Positions 40,041 through 50,338 of a stretch of 64,000 nucleotides of DNA are shown piece by piece. Positions within the stretch are counted from its first letter, which is position 1. Each line of letters begins with the position of its first letter. Made by a program: the position numbers and the translations under genes. Origin of the DNA: Archangium gephyra. GTDB taxonomy: Bacteria > Myxococcota > Myxococcia > Myxococcales > Myxococcaceae. Location: assembly GCF_001027285.1 (NCBI RefSeq), contig NZ_CP011509.1, positions 11,742,501 to 11,806,500 of the forward strand, written 5' to 3'. Below the pieces are notes generated by a model. That model saw only the letters and a list, made by a program, of their open reading frames with translations, did no database searches and was not told the origin of the DNA.

Positions 40041-40664
40041 ATGAGACACATCGCGAACGCACTGCTGGTCGTTGGAATGCTGTGGGCCGCCCAGGGACAG
40101 GCCCGCGACAAGACGATGGACTACCGGGGGATGAAGTTCTCCACCGACCCCAAGCAGTTCGTCGACCGGATGCTCTACCTGCACGGGGAGATCATCGACG
40201 AGGGCCGCATGGCCCAGCGCAACAGCCAGTCACCGCAGGTGAAGGAACTGTCCGAGACGCTGGTGAAGAGCCACCAGGCCTTCGATGAGCGGCTGAAGAA
40301 GCACCTCAAGGAGCAGAAGCTGCAGCCCGGTACCTTCAAGTCCACCACGGACGAGGAGCGGGGCACCGTCGCGCTCGAGAAGTCCACCGAGAACAAGCTC
40401 AAGACGCTCTCGGGCGATGCGTTCGATCAGGCCTTCCTCGCCGCGCAGGTGAGCGACCATGACCGGCTGCTCATGAGCGTGCTGGCGGGCCAGCAGATGT
40501 TCTCCGGACAGCCGCTCGGCGCGGTGCTCGCGGAGATGCAGCCCGAGTTGCTGAAGCTCCGGGAGCAGGCCTACCAGCTCCTGGGTCAGCAGGCGGCGAG
40601 CCTCGGCACGGGTGGCGCCGGCACGGACACGGGCAACGCCCCCAAGGACGACGGGAAGAAGTAG
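40041..40664 (+). CDS. DUF4142 periplasmic protein
   Basis: A 207-aa protein; ATG at 40041 is preceded by GGAGGAG. The signal peptide MRHIANALLVVGMLWAAQGQ is cleaved near AQGQA. The helical DUF4142 body follows: LYLHGEIIDEGRMAQRNSQS, VKELSETLVKSHQAFDERLK and FLAAQVSDHDRLLMSVLAGQ. In other bacteria DUF4142 proteins form ferritin-like four-helix bundles, but no metal ligands are certain here. It ends in a Gly-rich tail. A complete palindromic repeat starts 4 bases after the stop. Confidence 0.87.
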   Translation: MRHIANALLVVGMLWAAQGQARDKTMDYRGMKFSTDPKQFVDRMLYLHGEIIDEGRMAQRNSQSPQVKELSETLVKSHQAFDERLKKHLKEQKLQPGTFKSTTDEERGTVALEKSTENKLKTLSGDAFDQAFLAAQVSDHDRLLMSVLAGQQMFSGQPLGAVLAEMQPELLKLREQAYQLLGQQAASLGTGGAGTDTGNAPKDDGKK

Positions 40665-40668
40665 CTGC

Positions 40669-40805
40669 TCCCTCGCCCCCCGGGAGAGGGCGGGGGTGAG
40701 GGTATCCGGACCCGTTCTTCAACCTGTGGCCCCGGTTGTGGACAGCGGGTTCAACCCGGGGTCCGTGGCACCCTCACCCCGTCCCTCTCCCGGAGGGCGA
40801 GGGGA
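40669..40805. repeat. GC-rich intergenic palindromic repeat, complete copy 3
   Basis: The arms match the other copies (CGGGAGAGGGCGGGGGTGAG; then CCCTCACCCCGTCCCTCTCC, GGAGGGCGAGGGGA). The core appears in inverted orientation relative to copies 1 and 2 (GGGTTCAACCCGGGGTC on this strand). It lies between two genes of the same strand, 4 bases after the DUF4142 stop and 37 bases before the next ATG, so it probably ends the first transcript. Confidence 0.85.
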
Positions 40806-40842
40806 TTTGCCCACGGGCGGGCGGGCACCGTGTAATGGGGGC

Positions 40843-42492
40843 ATGACCACCCCCAGCGTGACCTTCGCCGTGGACGATGTCACCCCGGCTCCCTTTCCCC
40901 TCCAGGAGTGCGGCCTCGCCGAGTCGCTCGCGGCGAGGTTGAAGGAGCCGGTGCTCGGTTCCTCTCATGGGCCCCAGGTCCGCTTCATCTCACCCTCGGA
41001 CACGCACCCGCTCATGGCCGCGGTGCACCTGGCCTTCAGCGATCACCGTCCGCTGGTGCTCTCACCCGACCTCGTCTGGGTGACCATCGCCCAGGGGCTC
41101 GCGCTGCACATCGTCCAGAACGCGGAGGCCCTGCGCTTCGACCTGGTCCGGCACCAGGGCAAGAAGCAGCTCGTGGTGCCGCGCACGGACTGGGACTTCT
41201 CCTCGGCGGAGTTCTGGAACGAGGTCGTCGGCGACTTCTCCGCGCTGCTCCGGCAGGAGAGCACGGCCGTGCACGACTTGATGGTGTGCGATTTCTCGAC
41301 GACGGGCACCGTCGAGCGCGTGGTCAGTCAGGTGGTGCTGATGGACGCGCTGCGCGAGTACTTCGACTACGTCCTGGCGTGCATCTGCGGCATCCCCACC
41401 ATCACGCTCGAGGGCACCCCGGCGGACTGGAGCCGGCTCCGCGAGAAGGCCGGGCAGCTCTCCCGGTATGGGCTGGACTGGTGGGTCCAGCACCTGCTGC
41501 CCATCTGCGACCAGTTCGTGCGGGCCTCGCAGGGGAACGCGGATCGGGCGTTCTGGAAGGACATCTACAAGCCACGGGAGATCTACGGCGGAGACGTCAT
41601 CAACGGGTGGATCTGCAAGCTGTTCCCCTTCATCCGCAACGGCGTCACCGGCCAGTACGACATCCAGAATCCGGTGTTCGAGTCCGATCCCAACGCGCCC
41701 GAGGACGAGGGCGGGCGGTTCGGCGGCCCGCCGGGGTGGATTCAGAGCGACACCCTGCCCACGGGCCTGTCGCGTGTCCCGCTCGCCCTCGTGGAGCACA
41801 CGCCCGAGGGACGGAAGACGCGGAGCCTGGCCCTCACCGCGGGCTTCCTGGGGGTGAGCCAGTCCTCGAGCACGATGGCCCTGCGCCCCGAGCTCGGCTG
41901 GGTCGTCCATGAGGACCTCGGCCTGGAGGGCCTGCTGCGGCGCATGGGCGAGGAGCACCCGGTGAGCCCTCCGCTCCCACGGGAGGCGTTCCTGGCGTGG
42001 AGGGAGCAGTGGAGCGACTCCGGGCTGCCGGCCGACATCCTCCGTCTGTACAGCACCTGCGATGGGGCCTCGCTCTTTGGCGGGCGGGGCACGCCCTCGT
42101 ACCGGCTCCGTCCCGCGCGGGAGCTCGAGTTCCGGCATGAGAGGCGCTGGCTGCGCTTGCGCTCCCCGGAGGAAAAGGAGGCGATGGAGGAGAGAATCCG
42201 AGAGATGGATATGGCGGGGGAGATACCGGATGAAGTGCTGTGGGTGCTGAGCAGACCGAGCGGCTGGACGCGCTTCTGCGACCTGGCGGACGGCGGCTTC
42301 CTGGCCTTCAACTTCAACTACCGGGACGGTCAGCAGCTGCCCATCGTCTGGGTGAAGGACGCCCAGGCCACGCATGGAGAGCGCGTCGCCGACACGCTGG
42401 AGCAGTTCCTCCAGCGGGCGCTCGACTCCAAGGGCCGCCCGTACTTCCAGGAGCCGGGGTTCACGCCGGGGGAGCGCGTCGCGCTGTCGTGA
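40843..42492 (+). CDS. DUF4419 protein with C-terminal SMI1/KNR4 (SUKH)-like domain
   Basis: A 549-aa cytoplasmic protein. The first 350 residues match DUF4419: SDHRPLVLSPDLVWVTIAQG, DFSTTGTVERVVSQVVLMDA, YVLACICGIPTITLEGTPAD and GGDVINGWICKLFPF. The C-terminal 190 residues fit a SMI1/KNR4 domain: PADILRLYSTCDGASLFGG, then DLADGGFLAFNFNYRDGQQ. SUKH domains are common immunity domains in polymorphic toxin systems, but no toxin gene is next to it. The last 32 bases overlap the convergent membrane-protein gene. Function is unknown. Confidence 0.85.
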   Translation: MTTPSVTFAVDDVTPAPFPLQECGLAESLAARLKEPVLGSSHGPQVRFISPSDTHPLMAAVHLAFSDHRPLVLSPDLVWVTIAQGLALHIVQNAEALRFDLVRHQGKKQLVVPRTDWDFSSAEFWNEVVGDFSALLRQESTAVHDLMVCDFSTTGTVERVVSQVVLMDALREYFDYVLACICGIPTITLEGTPADWSRLREKAGQLSRYGLDWWVQHLLPICDQFVRASQGNADRAFWKDIYKPREIYGGDVINGWICKLFPFIRNGVTGQYDIQNPVFESDPNAPEDEGGRFGGPPGWIQSDTLPTGLSRVPLALVEHTPEGRKTRSLALTAGFLGVSQSSSTMALRPELGWVVHEDLGLEGLLRRMGEEHPVSPPLPREAFLAWREQWSDSGLPADILRLYSTCDGASLFGGRGTPSYRLRPARELEFRHERRWLRLRSPEEKEAMEERIREMDMAGEIPDEVLWVLSRPSGWTRFCDLADGGFLAFNFNYRDGQQLPIVWVKDAQATHGERVADTLEQFLQRALDSKGRPYFQEPGFTPGERVALS

Positions 42493-44306: not shown

Positions 44307-46382
44307 TCAGGAGACGTGGAGCGAGGGTGGCGCGGGCTCCATCGGTGGAGGAGGCGGCGGCCTGGGATCGATCTCCAGGGCATCCACATAGCACCAGCCC
44401 CAGTGCTCGCCCGGCTCGAAGGAGCGCATGAGCGGGTGCCCCGTGGCCTCGAAGTGCTTCATCGCGTGCCGGCCGAAGGAGGCGTCGCAGCAGCCCACGT
44501 GGCCGCACGTCAGACACATCCGCAGGTTGTGCCAGCGCAGGTGCAGCGCCAGGCAGGCCTCGCAGCCCGAGGTCCGGGGCAGCACGTCGTACCGCAGCTG
44601 CTCCAGGTGCGAGCACGTGGTGGCCGTGCCCCGCCGCAGGCCTCCCATCGTCCCCAGCATGCGCCGGGGGCCGGAGACGGGGCCGTGCTCGGGAACGCCC
44701 TCGTGGCGCAGCCCGGCCAGCAGCGCGTTCATGGCCTCCTCCGCCACGCCCCCCGCGTGCAGCACCCGCGTCACCGCCTCCAGGGCCGTCTCGAACTCGC
44801 CGGCCACGATGTCGCTCGCGCCCCGCTCGTGCAGGTCTCCGATGTCCCGCAGCCGGGGCACCTTCACCAGGATGGGCACGTCCGGGGACAGCCTCCGCGC
44901 GGCCGACACCGCCCGCTGCGAGCCCTCGGGGTCGCTGATGAGCAGCACCAGCGCCCGCGCCCGGTGGATGCCCGCGCGCTCCAATATCTCCGGGCTGGTG
45001 ATGTCGCCGTAGTACATGACCTCGCCGCGCCGCCGCGCCTCGGCCACCACGTGCGGATCCAACTCGATGACCACGTGGGGCAGGTTGCTGGCGCGCAGGG
45101 CCCTCACCACCATGCGTCCGGCGGTGCCCAGCCCCGCGACGATGAAGTGCTGGGAGAGCTCCTCGTGCTCGGGCTCCAGCCGGTGGGGCCCATGCGCGCC
45201 GAACAGCGCCTCCAAGGGCCGGAGGTGCGCCACGCCCGCCGCCAGCCGGGGCGCGAAGCTCAGCGCCACCGGCGTCGCCGCCATGGTGAGGACGCTCATG
45301 CACACGAAGAGATCCCTCTCCTGCGCGCTGAGCAGCCCCACCTGCAGCCCCGCGTTGGCCAGCACGAAGGAGAACTCGCCAATCTGCGCCAGCCCCACGC
45401 CCGCCAGCACCGCCACCCGCGGGGGGAAGCGCATCACCAGGGCCCCCACCCCGCCGAGCACCGACTTGCCCACCAGCACGCCCACCAGCAACCCCGCCAC
45501 CAGCAGCGGGTGCTCCCCCACGACGCGCACGTCGAAGAGCATGCCGATGGAGATGAAGAAGAGGCTGGCGAACGTCTCGCGCAGCGGCAGCATGTCCGCC
45601 AGCGCCTGGTAGCCGTAGTCGCTGTCCGCCAGCGCCACCCCGGCCATGAAGGCCCCCAGCGCCAGCGACAGGCCCGCCAGCGAGGACAGCCAGGCCACGC
45701 CCGCGCCCAGCCCCAGCACCGCCAGCAGGAAGAGCTCGCGCCGCCGCGTGCCCGCCACCGCCTTGAGCAGCGGCGGCACCGCCACCCGTCCGAGCACCAG
45801 CGTCGCCACCACCAGCAGCGCCGCCCTGGCCAGCACCCAGGCGATGGACGCCGCGCCCACCTCCTGCCCCGCCAGCAGCGGAATGGCGAGCATCATCGGC
45901 ACCACGCACAAGTCCTGGAAGATGAGCGCCCCGACGATGAGCCGCCCGTGGGGCGCGTCCGTCTCCTGCCGCTCACCGAGCGCCCGCAGCACGATGGCCG
46001 TGCTGGAGAGCGCCACCAGGAAGCCGAGGAAGACACCCTTGCGCGGGGAGAAGCCCAGCGCCGTGGCCACCGTCACCACGGCCACCAGGGTGAGCACCAC
46101 CTGGAGGCCTCCTCCCAGGGTGAGCACCTTCCACAGCCGCCTCAGCCGCTCGAGCGAGAACTCCAGCCCGATGCCGAAAAGCAGCAGGGCCACGCCGAGC
46201 TCGGCCAGGGCCTCCAGCCGCCAGGTGTCGCGCACCCAGCCGAGGCCACTCGGGCCGATGAGCGCACCCGCGGCGATGAGGCCGGCGATGGTGGGAAGGC
46301 GCAACCGGCTGAGCGCCAGGACCACCACCACCGCCACCCCGAAGACCACCACCAGTTCCTGGAGAAGCTCGGGAGCCTGCAT
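44307..46382 (-). CDS. KefB-type cation/proton antiporter with C-terminal UBP zinc finger
   Basis: A 691-aa protein. ATG 46382 is chosen because GGAGG lies seven bases upstream. The CPA2 transporter part occupies the first 390 residues (12 helices; ALIGPSGLGWVRDT; FLVALSSTAIVLRAL; GALIFQDLCVVPMMLAIPLL). A TrkA-N domain (VAGLGTAGRMVVRALRASN; GDITSPEILERAGI) and helical spacer follow. The last 85 residues form a UBP-type zinc finger: Cys607-x2-Cys610, CLTCGHVGCCD, RHAMKHFEATGHPLMRS and WGWCYVD. Bacterial UBP fingers are usually separate proteins. Probably a K+/H+ antiporter. Confidence 0.93.
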   Translation of the reverse strand: MQAPELLQELVVVFGVAVVVVLALSRLRLPTIAGLIAAGALIGPSGLGWVRDTWRLEALAELGVALLLFGIGLEFSLERLRRLWKVLTLGGGLQVVLTLVAVVTVATALGFSPRKGVFLGFLVALSSTAIVLRALGERQETDAPHGRLIVGALIFQDLCVVPMMLAIPLLAGQEVGAASIAWVLARAALLVVATLVLGRVAVPPLLKAVAGTRRRELFLLAVLGLGAGVAWLSSLAGLSLALGAFMAGVALADSDYGYQALADMLPLRETFASLFFISIGMLFDVRVVGEHPLLVAGLLVGVLVGKSVLGGVGALVMRFPPRVAVLAGVGLAQIGEFSFVLANAGLQVGLLSAQERDLFVCMSVLTMAATPVALSFAPRLAAGVAHLRPLEALFGAHGPHRLEPEHEELSQHFIVAGLGTAGRMVVRALRASNLPHVVIELDPHVVAEARRRGEVMYYGDITSPEILERAGIHRARALVLLISDPEGSQRAVSAARRLSPDVPILVKVPRLRDIGDLHERGASDIVAGEFETALEAVTRVLHAGGVAEEAMNALLAGLRHEGVPEHGPVSGPRRMLGTMGGLRRGTATTCSHLEQLRYDVLPRTSGCEACLALHLRWHNLRMCLTCGHVGCCDASFGRHAMKHFEATGHPLMRSFEPGEHWGWCYVDALEIDPRPPPPPPMEPAPPSLHVS

Positions 46383-46419: not shown

Positions 46420-47751
46420 TCAGCGCTGGAAGTCCACGCCCACGCCCAGGCCCGCCGTGAAGCCGTGGCGCAGGTGGCCCTCGGCCTGCGGGAAGTGCTC
46501 CCGCCCCGCCGTGACGAGCCCGTACACCGCGGGCAGGAAGCGGTGGCGCACCTCGAGGGCCGCCGAGTAGCGCGGGTGCACGGTGAGGTCGGTGAGGATG
46601 ACGCGCAGCTCGGCCACCGTCTTGCCGCCCGGCAGGTGCGCCTGGAGCGCCGCGTCCGCGTCCACCCGGCCCGTGCTGACGAAGTACTCGCCCGAGGCGC
46701 TCGCCGTCAGCTCCAGGTCCTCCGGCCCGCCCGGACTCACCGAGGCCGCGAACTCGCCGTACCCGGAGAACGTCCCCGGCAGCAGCTCCTCGGCGAGCGG
46801 CTGCTCGCTCAGGCCCACGCCCGAGAAGCGCCCGAACTCGTAGCCCGCGCCGAAGAAGCCGAAGCGGAAGCGCCCGCCCTGGCGCCGTGCCTCCAACCGG
46901 CCGGTGAGGTCCACCAGTTCCTGGGGCTGGCCGCGCACCACCACGCCAAAGGCCGCGCCGTAGTCCGGAACCGACTCGACGAGTGTATCGGCCCGCGCGC
47001 CCGCCGCGGCCTGCAGCCACAGCTGCAGCCTGTCGTTCTTCACCACGCCCGCCTGGAAGCCGACGCTCGCCGCGGACAGCGGGGGCGCCGTGCCGCCCGC
47101 CTGGCCGAAGTCATGCGCCGCGTCCACCGACAGCAGGAAGCGATCGAAAGCCGTGTCCTGGTCGCTCAGCACGCGGCCCAGGTCCAACCGCACCTCGGCG
47201 GCGAAGAGGCGCGGGGCCAGCACGTCGCTCGCGAAGAGCTCCACCCGCGTGGGCCCCAGGTACGCCACGACATTGCCGCCCGCCGGGTGGTAGTCCGGCG
47301 AGATGCGGTTGTGGTAGCGGTTCACCAGCCAGCCCGCGCCCAGCGAGTACGTGGAGAAGGCGCCCGCGCGCAGCTGCACCCGCCCATCGTCCCGGCCGAT
47401 GCGCAGGTTCCTCAGAATCTGCGCGAAGTCGCTGCGCTCGTCCCAGTCCTGGCGCCGCAGCCGGCCGCCGTAGTCCTGCTCCAGCTGCAGCGGCTCCTGG
47501 TCGAGGAAGCGCACGCGCAGGGGCGCGCCCAGCTCGAACTCGAACTCATCGCCGCCCTTCACGCCCAGGCGCGGGAAGGCGACGGCGAAGCCATCCATCT
47601 GGTTGGCGCCCGTGCCCGAGGGCAGGGCCAGTCCGCCCACCTCGAGCGCCGCCTGGAATTGAATGCCTTCTTCCGCGGGCGCGGCGGGATTTTCGACGAA
47701 GGCCTTGGGGGCCTGATGGAGCACGGAGGCAAGAACGAGGGCACCAATCAT
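46420..47751 (-). CDS. Outer-membrane beta-barrel protein
   Basis: A 443-aa protein; the ATG at 47751 gives a short N-terminal hydrophobic stretch MIGALVLASVLHQAP as the signal. The rest alternates polar and hydrophobic residues with aromatic girdles typical of barrels, such as VQLRAGAFSTYSLGAGWLVN and RFGFFGAGYEFGRF, and ends AGLGVGVDFQR. The pattern of the last strand is weakly consistent with outer-membrane insertion. It precedes the KefB-like gene by 37 bases and probably shares its transcript. Confidence 0.82.
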   Translation of the reverse strand: MIGALVLASVLHQAPKAFVENPAAPAEEGIQFQAALEVGGLALPSGTGANQMDGFAVAFPRLGVKGGDEFEFELGAPLRVRFLDQEPLQLEQDYGGRLRRQDWDERSDFAQILRNLRIGRDDGRVQLRAGAFSTYSLGAGWLVNRYHNRISPDYHPAGGNVVAYLGPTRVELFASDVLAPRLFAAEVRLDLGRVLSDQDTAFDRFLLSVDAAHDFGQAGGTAPPLSAASVGFQAGVVKNDRLQLWLQAAAGARADTLVESVPDYGAAFGVVVRGQPQELVDLTGRLEARRQGGRFRFGFFGAGYEFGRFSGVGLSEQPLAEELLPGTFSGYGEFAASVSPGGPEDLELTASASGEYFVSTGRVDADAALQAHLPGGKTVAELRVILTDLTVHPRYSAALEVRHRFLPAVYGLVTAGREHFPQAEGHLRHGFTAGLGVGVDFQR

Positions 47752-49166: not shown

Positions 49167-49628
49167 CTACTTCGCCGGCGGCGCGGTGAGCACGAGGATG
49201 AGCTCGCCGCCCACGTGCTTGCCGGCGCGCTGGTAGACGGCGCCCTCGCGGCCCAGCTCCACGTCCACGGCGGACAGCTGGGGCACGTCCACGCGCAGGG
49301 TGGCGGTGTCGCCCTGCATGCGCAGCAGCTTGAGCGAGGCGTTGACGCCATTGGGCAGCTTCACCTCGGTGGGCTCCTTGCTGCTCACCTCGAGGGACTG
49401 CTGGGACAGGCGCTTGAAGGAGGTGAAGTTGAAGTTCTGACGCTGGAACGTCTCCTTCATCTTCTGGAGCTGGGGAGGATCCACCTCGGTGCCCTTGCGG
49501 GAGACGAGCACCACCTCCACCTCCACCTTGAGCTTCTGCTCCTGGGCGAGCGCGGCCCCTGGAAGGAGAAGCAGCCCCAGCAGGGCCAGCACCCGCAGGG
49601 CCCCCGGCACGCGCGTCGTCGTCCTCAT
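49167..49628 (-). CDS. Exported protein of the sigma/anti-sigma operon
   Basis: A 153-aa protein. A signal peptide runs LRVLALLGLLLLPGAALAQE. The mature part is an all-beta small domain: KLKVEVEVVLVSRKGTEVDP, NFTSFKRLSQQSLEVSSKEP and AVYQRAGKHVGGELILVLTA. I do not recognise a family; the alternation suggests a periplasmic adaptor or target of the regulator. ATG 49628 overlaps the stop of the anti-sigma gene, so it is translated with it. Confidence 0.8.
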   Translation of the reverse strand: MRTTTRVPGALRVLALLGLLLLPGAALAQEQKLKVEVEVVLVSRKGTEVDPPQLQKMKETFQRQNFNFTSFKRLSQQSLEVSSKEPTEVKLPNGVNASLKLLRMQGDTATLRVDVPQLSAVDVELGREGAVYQRAGKHVGGELILVLTAPPAK

Positions 49629-50269
49629 AGCTCTCCTCCCTTGGGGGGCTCGGCCTTGGCCGGGCCCTTCTTCAGCGGCTCGCCGTCCAGCTCGTCGCCC
49701 TCGTCCCGCGGGGTGCGGGACTTGGGCTCGGCCTCGGAGGCATCGTGCGCCGGAGCCGTGTCCTGGTCCACCACCCAGATGATGGTGTTGCCATCATCGG
49801 ACTCGAGCACCACCGGGGCCACCTTGGCGCCCTCGGAGGCGCGCACGGCGCGCACGCGCATCCGGTCCGCGCCGTAGCCCATGGGGGCCTCGTCCTGGTT
49901 CATCGCCAGGGGCACCACCACCAGGGCGAGCACCGCCGCGGTGGCCAGCGAGGAGACCATGGCGGTGCGGTGGTAGAGGAACAGCTCCGAGAAGGAGATG
50001 CGCAGCCGCTCGAGGAGGGGCGGACGCTCGGGCGTCACCCGGGCCATGACGCGCTGGGTGAAGTCCTTGAAGTCCACCTCGTCCACGGCCATTTCCAGGC
50101 CCACCCGGAGCAGGGCGGACTCGGCGCGCAGGTCGGCGGCGCGGCTGGCGCAGTCCCGGCAGGCCGAGAGGTGGCGCTCGACGTTGACGCGGTCAGCGGG
50201 GGACAGCTCCCCATCGATGTAGGGGGACAGCAGTGGGACGAAGCGCTCGCACGCGGGATTTCCGGCCAT
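49625..50269 (-). CDS. Zinc-finger (zf-HC2) transmembrane anti-sigma factor
   Basis: A 214-aa membrane protein. ATG 50269 (after GAGG) is preferred to GTG 50278. The ZAS motif ERHLSACRDCASR gives His33, Cys37 and Cys40 in a helical sigma-binding domain. A single helix near 105-125 (VSSLATAAVLALVVVPLAM) places the acidic C-terminal region in the periplasm. It should hold the adjacent sigma factor inactive until regulated release. It lies 69 bases downstream of the sigma gene and overlaps the next gene by ATGA. Confidence 0.92.
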   Translation of the reverse strand: MAGNPACERFVPLLSPYIDGELSPADRVNVERHLSACRDCASRAADLRAESALLRVGLEMAVDEVDFKDFTQRVMARVTPERPPLLERLRISFSELFLYHRTAMVSSLATAAVLALVVVPLAMNQDEAPMGYGADRMRVRAVRASEGAKVAPVVLESDDGNTIIWVVDQDTAPAHDASEAEPKSRTPRDEGDELDGEPLKKGPAKAEPPKGGEL

Positions 50270-50338
50270 GTTCCTCACCCGGCGTAATGGGGGACGTGCG
50301 GGTTGGACGGGGGCGGGGCACCGATATTCCAGCCCCTT

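Follow-up and report, generated by a model that had tools for sequence, protein, structure and literature searches.

Why would a bacterial ion exchanger from which the glutathione site of KefC is largely gone end in a zinc finger of a kind that is regarded as a reader of ubiquitin in eukaryotes? The question is raised by a gene in a stretch of 64,000 nucleotides from Archangium gephyra, a member of the Myxococcota (assembly GCF_001027285.1, contig NZ_CP011509.1, positions 11,742,501 to 11,806,500). We call this whole stretch the window, and its first letter is position 1. The gene encodes a CPA2 membrane domain, a TrkA_N domain and a C-terminal finger of the ubiquitin-specific-protease (UBP) type. 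Our reading, to which we give a probability of roughly 45% and which is built on comparisons of sequences, is that the product would be a Kef-type K+/H+ antiporter in which a swappable finger replaces the glutathione gate and ties the transporter to a module of kinase and flavoenzyme. The finger is probably a regulatory plug-in and not a ubiquitin reader. The features on which the argument turns are the following.

44307..46382, minus strand: whole fusion gene, CPA2 antiporter, TrkA_N and zf-UBP (protein P0002), 691 amino acids (open reading frame and Pfam)
45267..46334, minus strand: Na_H_Exchanger (CPA2) membrane domain, residues 17-372 (Pfam, 5.6e-58)
44805..45146, minus strand: TrkA_N (RCK/KTN) domain, residues 413-526 (Pfam, 4.8e-21; alignment to KefC)
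44382..44615, minus strand: UBP-type zinc finger, residues 590-667 (Pfam, alignment, structure model)
45912..45917, minus strand: Q156-D157, equivalents of the K+-site residues Q155/D156 of KefC (alignment to KefC)
44484..44489, minus strand: C632-D633, an extra cysteine and the Asp replacing the arginine that binds the ubiquitin carboxylate (alignment)
44520..44522, minus strand: R621, two residues ahead of C623, at the position where USP16 has Trp (alignment)

The gene is read on the minus strand from an ATG at 46382 to a stop codon ending at 44307; the plus-strand frame across the same span is an unrelated open frame. The initial annotation, made from the letters alone, had described a CPA2 transporter with TrkA_N followed by a UBP-type finger, and Pfam bears this out: zf-UBP (PF02148) matches residues 607-670 (1e-11, 45.4 bits, gathering cut-off 22.7). 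Its label of KefB-like was loose. The protein is of the Kef type, but the NCBIfam model of KefC (299.5 bits, cut-off 752) outscores that of KefB (254.7 bits, cut-off 804), and both scores are far under their cut-offs.

The comparison with KefC (phmmer, 8e-60) separates the transport site from the gate. In KefC, K+ is coordinated by S125, T127, Q155 and D156 (PMC11150392; this and the other papers are cited here for the available part of their text). All four are kept in the alignment, as S126, T128, Q156 and D157. Only one of the six aligned glutathione contacts is kept, R416 as R427; the others are changed (R409 to T420, Q412 to R423, R498 to P509, D499 to R510, R516 to A527), and the alignment does not reach a further contact residue, N551. 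The trigger residue F441 corresponds to R452, at a position that is not conserved even in KefB (contact and trigger roles, and this last point: PMC10224563, PMC11150392). Since the K+ site is kept and most glutathione contacts are gone, K+/H+ antiport by the window protein appears likely and glutathione gating unlikely. No partner of the KefF/KefG type was recognised in the two adjacent same-strand open reading frames, of which one has no Pfam match and the other a PTPS_related match under cut-off; this result is limited to these two frames.

The finger itself is well defined. The cysteines that had been quoted, C607, C610 and the motif CLTCGHVGCC (C623 to C632), are all present, whereas the count of two histidines falls short: there are three near-invariant ones (639, 643 and 649), in addition to C590, H592 and C664. 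The whole set is C590, H592, C607, C610, C623, C626, C631, H639, H643, H649 and C664, and with D667 we take it to match the three-zinc ligand set of HDAC6. A model of the finger, predicted with 49 sequences, has a predicted local distance difference test (pLDDT) score of 91.3. Its best structural match is PDB 2ida (Z 14.2, root-mean-square deviation 1.3 over 86 residues, 50% identity), and further matches are to HDAC6 (Z up to 11.7), USP16 (10.2) and USP5 (8.8).

We analysed the conservation of the finger in 174 bacterial rows. One source was a pattern scan of named genomes, in which 80 loci were kept out of at least 585 relatives; the counts over 80 loci given below rest on these. The patterns contain CGHVGC and CD, so that residue counts from the 80 loci are biased. 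The fairer set is that of 87 distinct rows found by hidden Markov model (HMM) and filtered by BLAST to the window finger, a step that lost one locus (L067). Of the 174 rows, 159 keep every one of the 11 Cys/His positions. Position 621 is Arg in 172 of the 174 rows and in 85 of the 87 distinct ones. At position 632 the distinct rows have Cys (84), Ser (2) or a gap (1), and at position 633 Asp (80), Asn (4), Glu (2) or a gap (1). Arg occurs at position 633 in none of the 174 rows, which have Asp, Asn or Glu instead, and in none of the 87. The GCCD-type pattern, made up of C632, D633, R621 and W661/W663, is present in the window finger. W663 and Y665 (W1182 and Y1184 in HDAC6) are also kept there, and Y665 is Phe in 26 of the 87 distinct rows.

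These residues bear directly on what the finger could bind. In a gapless stretch of the alignment to USP16, GCCD of the window finger stands on GCGR. We identified the Arg under D633 with R84 of USP16 and the Tyr aligned to Y665 with Y117, each being offset by 17 from the chain numbering; these two USP16 residues were chosen for mutation as the equivalents of HDAC6 R1155 and Y1184 (PMC10424181). The carboxylate-binding arginine (USP16 R84, HDAC6 R1155, USP5 R221) is replaced by Asp633, and the Gly ahead of it by Cys632. In USP5, R221K raises the dissociation constant for ubiquitin from 2.3 to 100 uM and Y261F raises it to 88 uM (PMC3247260, available part). Because the arginine is replaced by Asp, and R221K alone already weakens USP5, binding of the ubiquitin type seems unlikely. 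The initial annotation had stated that the eukaryotic finger holds the C-terminal Gly-Gly of ubiquitin and wondered whether the bacterial one might sense a protein C-terminus, a nucleotide or a metal; it had also named the lack of the peptide-binding pocket as what would undo its proposal, and the pocket has indeed lost its carboxylate arginine. The search for ubiquitin-like proteins that it proposed was run in part. Ubiquitin (PF00240) has no match over cut-off in the window genome, while ThiS/MoaD and other proteins ending in Gly-Gly were not searched for; the sole match (E 0.652) lies inside a frame of 1446 amino acids and was taken as chance. The candidate of a ubiquitin reader was rejected on the altered pocket together with this result. 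Sensing of a ubiquitin-like protein or of another Gly-Gly C-terminus would draw on the clear UBP fold and on the retained W663 and Y665, but a position 633 that is never Arg, the roughly 40-fold cost of R221K alone to USP5 and the PF00240 result make it very improbable.

The fusion is widespread enough to be neither a chance event nor an assembly artefact, the latter being a refuting condition named by the initial annotation. Three of the five other genomes of the genus have it with 94, 90 and 89% identity (over 677-685 residues) and two further genera with 79% and 63%, and the artefact was rejected on this ground. The finger motif is kept in all of these. In the fourth congener (G064, locus L069) the antiporter-finger gene is split among several frames of a single-contig genome, which could reflect a pseudogene or a sequencing error, and the fifth (G063) has weaker antiporter matches only (best 37% identity). 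Within Myxococcota, zf-UBP was found in 82 of 195 genomes, and inspection of every match with a frame of at least 600 amino acids revealed an intact CPA2-finger fusion in 19 genomes, 6 of the window type and 13 of a second type. The two fusions of the second type that were scanned also match TrkA_C, over cut-off in L063 and just under it in L042.

The search for other antiporter-UBP fusions, also proposed at the outset, returned them in five phyla and in both CPA2 and CPA1-like exchangers. Among the 80 loci, CPA2 fusions occur in a metagenome-assembled genome of Phycisphaerae (L073), in Chloroflexi AL-N1 (L086) and in a Myxococcus (L078). The searches by phylum found zf-UBP in 68 of 296 Actinomycetota, 44 of 201 Chloroflexota, 13 of 349 Pseudomonadota, 3 of 199 Planctomycetota (1 over cut-off), 5 of 146 Cyanobacteriota and 29 of 149 Acidobacteriota genomes (28 over cut-off), those of Chloroflexota and Planctomycetota being centred on genomes picked because they bear the fusion. 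Twenty stretches were fetched, and two of them hold CPA2 fusions (L155, Actinomycetota; L172, Acidobacteriota). Besides Myxococcota, the CPA2 fusion is thus represented by single cases in four phyla. Four Actinomycetota loci (L153, L158, L159 and L164) encode CPA1-like exchangers that end in the finger, and the one scanned with NCBIfam, L153, is a TIGR00831 Na+/H+ antiporter of the CPA1 family (304.7 bits, cut-off 279.6). Other architectures were met along the way: an LtrA-family membrane protein of an actinomycete has a C-terminal UBP finger (L166:2527-4182), and in a Chloroflexota genome two UBP fingers lie in neighbouring frames of 102 and 421 amino acids (L171:4039-5610).

We built a tree of 39 CPA2 membrane domains, rooted at its midpoint. 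The fused rows are not one clade: they fall in two groups, the fusion label needs three changes, and forcing all fused rows together is rejected (approximately unbiased test, p-AU 0.011). The trees left out the broken L069 and the fragment L002, and the tree of 39 rows also the long-branched L195 and L198; a tree of 40 rows with these two and without the window's row requires the same three changes. In the tree of the fingers, those of the two CPA2 groups lie apart with weak support. With its midpoint root, the CPA2 tree does not separate repeated gain from one gain followed by losses; the CPA1 fusions point to a separate gain on at least one occasion. A related unfused clade has seven rows, and the three that were scanned (L182, L183 and L188) end in TrkA_C, a domain that Pfam does not match in the window protein or in the scanned fused relatives L048, L060, L038 and L049. 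Since the finger lies at the C-terminus where the scanned unfused relatives have TrkA_C, it is a natural inference from the architecture that it gates the transporter.

What could speak to such a gate is suggested by the company that the fingers keep. A flavoenzyme of one kind, with the thioredoxin reductase (TrxR) fold, is found at 15 of the 80 loci: 12 adjoin the finger gene, and 3 are parted from it only by a histidine kinase that binds cyclic nucleotide monophosphates (cNMP). The only control for these neighbourhoods is internal, namely that the flavoenzyme sits at the nearest positions within loci. Pfam scans of six flavoenzymes showed a cNMP-binding or receiver domain in five, the exception being L080, which has neither. 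The four scanned with the NCBIfam TRX_reduct model score 203-235 bits (cut-off 343). The CXXC of thioredoxin reductases is found in the aligned part of none of 29 neighbouring or fused flavoenzymes; the only CXXC match, in L137, belongs to another enzyme 1.6 kb away and was not counted. The cNMP-kinase exceeds 400 bits at 6 of the 80 loci (HMM); matches of about 58-166 bits were not counted. In L086 the stop codon of the kinase gene (515 bits) overlaps the start of the antiporter-finger gene as ATGA, and in a Hyalangium (L100) the kinase lies beside a stand-alone finger.

Six loci (L098, L106, L116, L127, L161 and L170) carry a gene group of the CXXC-less TrxR-fold flavoenzyme, the cNMP-histidine kinase and the UBP finger. 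The flavoenzyme has a receiver domain in L127 and L161, and kinase and finger are a single protein in L161 and L170, the finger being N-terminal of the kinase in L170. This gene group is an uncharacterised module in its own right. Two further proteins join flavoenzyme and finger: a three-part one with cNMP-binding, Pyr_redox_2 and zf-UBP domains by Pfam (L058:3243-5687), and a single frame recognised by BLAST and HMM (L059:1829-4264).

On this basis we can outline how the window protein might work. The CPA2 core, with its KefC-like K+ site, and the RCK domain would carry K+/H+ antiport. The finger would serve as input or docking domain and decide whether the transporter is clamped by the RCK dimer, in analogy with KefC, whose activation is proposed to proceed by detachment of the RCK domains (PMC11150392, available part). 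Judging from neighbourhoods and from the other fusions, the signal to the finger may come from the module, that is, from a finger of the same type, the cNMP-binding histidine kinase and the flavoenzyme with its cNMP-binding or receiver domain. In that case the module, and not glutathione adducts, would govern K+ efflux and proton entry, and the signal is perhaps a redox or electron-carrier state. More broadly, the cNMP-histidine kinase, the CXXC-less flavoenzyme and the GCCD-type finger may form an undescribed bacterial module. Its finger would be an input domain that can be transferred between proteins and that CPA2 and CPA1 exchangers acquired on more than one occasion, which would put K+/H+ and Na+/H+ exchange under the control of the module; this wider proposal is tentative and may well prove wrong. 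If it holds, the ubiquitin-reading finger of eukaryotes has a bacterial counterpart of the same fold that serves in signalling and recognises another ligand.

Several observations weigh against a finger that gates the antiporter for the module. The closest unfused relatives (L180 and L181, 72-73% identity in the membrane part) lack finger and TrkA_C alike, two domains that they can presumably do without, and the scanned fusions of the second CPA2 lineage carry the finger on top of TrkA_C and not in its stead. The full-length model is poor (pLDDT mostly below 50 over the finger, from an alignment of 4) and shows no interface. The neighbourhoods of the CPA2 fusions themselves also speak against a tight link to the module. 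The window genome, a single contig of 12.49 Mb, has one close cNMP-flavoenzyme (46% identity to that of L144, E 9.7e-134), also without CXXC, which lies at about 6.539 Mb, far from both fingers of this genome, the second being a stand-alone one of about 107 amino acids near 836.9 kb. The 64-kb window has no such flavoenzyme, and its kinase matches are generic only (56-82 bits), the nearest about 5 kb off; the window was the only part of this genome searched for cNMP-kinases. At the 23 CPA2-fusion loci scanned, a high-scoring cNMP-kinase was seen only in L086 and the flavoenzyme in none. Four other CPA2-fusion loci have kinase matches of 59-163 bits on the opposite strand; those of L060 and L061 are of about 162 bits and lie 1.4-1.5 kb off, and those of L048 and L038 are of about 60 bits. 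Finally, since the flavoenzymes lack CXXC, the evidence does not support a simple relay of thiols from them, and we regard a thioredoxin-like relay as a weakened candidate.

Two other explanations are serious rivals. The finger may be an adaptor that brings the antiporter to the flavoenzyme, the kinase or another membrane protein without gating it. Small stand-alone finger genes that adjoin partner genes, and fingers fused to the partners, would fit such docking, as would the presence of the finger, C-terminal except in L170, on proteins as unlike as CPA2 and CPA1-like exchangers, LtrA, kinase and flavoenzyme. The window lineage, however, has its finger at the regulatory position that TrkA_C occupies in related antiporters, which favours regulation, and at 22 of the 23 scanned CPA2-fusion loci neither a high-scoring kinase nor the flavoenzyme was seen nearby; we hold docking alone to be unlikely. 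The other rival takes up a thought of the initial annotation, which had listed metal among possible signals: the zinc-bound cysteines and C632 would react with electrophiles or oxidants, or lose zinc, and thereby open the antiporter, a direct sensor in place of the glutathione-adduct one. It would account for the near-invariance of C632, where USP16 has Gly, and for the intact Cys/His set, and the response to electrophiles is the known job of Kef (PMC10224563, available part). Yet the role of C632 could be structural, or it could bind zinc, and the stand-alone fingers have the same cysteine, so that we consider this sensor decidedly unlikely. It is hardly credible that the finger was merely appended and tolerated. 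The close relatives L180 and L181, which do without it, and the broken gene of G064 would suit such an incidental fusion, but fingers occur on two kinds of exchanger and the motif is preserved across congeners and genera. We thus retain, at the odds given above, the Kef-type antiporter with its finger in place of the glutathione gate.

The surroundings of the gene add one recurrent neighbour.

46420..47751, minus strand: upstream open reading frame of 443 amino acids, without Pfam match, 37 bases ahead of the fusion gene (list of open reading frames, Pfam)

Its relatives lie directly upstream of the fusion gene, or overlap it, in L038, L048, L060 and L061, and also ahead of the broken gene of L069. 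The clustering of all neighbouring frames was dominated by spurious high-GC frames and was used for this open reading frame only; one more frame of the cluster, the sixth, which lies on the opposite strand in L058, was left out. Elsewhere in the window, the plus strand encodes a DUF4419 protein whose C-terminus has a SUKH-1 (SMI1_KNR4) match below threshold (40612-42492), and the minus strand a zf-HC2 protein, a putative zinc finger (49625-50278), for which we assume an anti-sigma-type role.

Both parts of the fusion are known kinds, a Kef-type antiporter and a bacterial UBP finger whose structure was deposited in 2006 (PDB 2ida), and architectures of this sort may be listed in domain databases. 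In the open-licence literature of PubMed Central we found no paper on bacterial UBP fingers or on an antiporter-UBP fusion, and nothing on their combination, on a family-wide loss of the ubiquitin pocket or on the company of kinase and flavoenzyme. The conserved altered pocket, with Arg changed to Asp and an extra Cys, its spread over two exchanger families and the link to kinase and flavoenzyme offer a testable route to the function of bacterial UBP fingers.

The relation to known systems can be stated part by part. With KefC and KefB of Escherichia coli the window protein shares the CPA2 membrane domain with its SST...QD K+ site and the RCK/TrkA_N domain; it differs in the glutathione contacts, of which it keeps one of six, in scores far under the family cut-offs and in its UBP finger. 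The unfused L182, L183 and L188 belong to the same CPA2 group (51-57% identity in the membrane domain) and end in TrkA_C, whereas the window protein ends in the finger. The CPA1-like exchangers of Actinomycetota also carry the finger at their C-terminus, but none of the four has the TrkA_N match of the window protein. The fingers of HDAC6, USP5 and USP16 have the same fold (Z 8.8-11.7), the same Cys/His pattern and the equivalents of W663 and Y665; the window finger departs from them by Asp for the carboxylate Arg, by Cys for the Gly ahead of it and by Arg for the Trp of USP16. The closest solved finger is RPA1320 of Rhodopseudomonas palustris (PDB 2ida; phmmer 2.4e-27), which has the same GCCD motif and is a separate protein of 102 residues, with no function given in its listings, while that of the window is fused to an antiporter.

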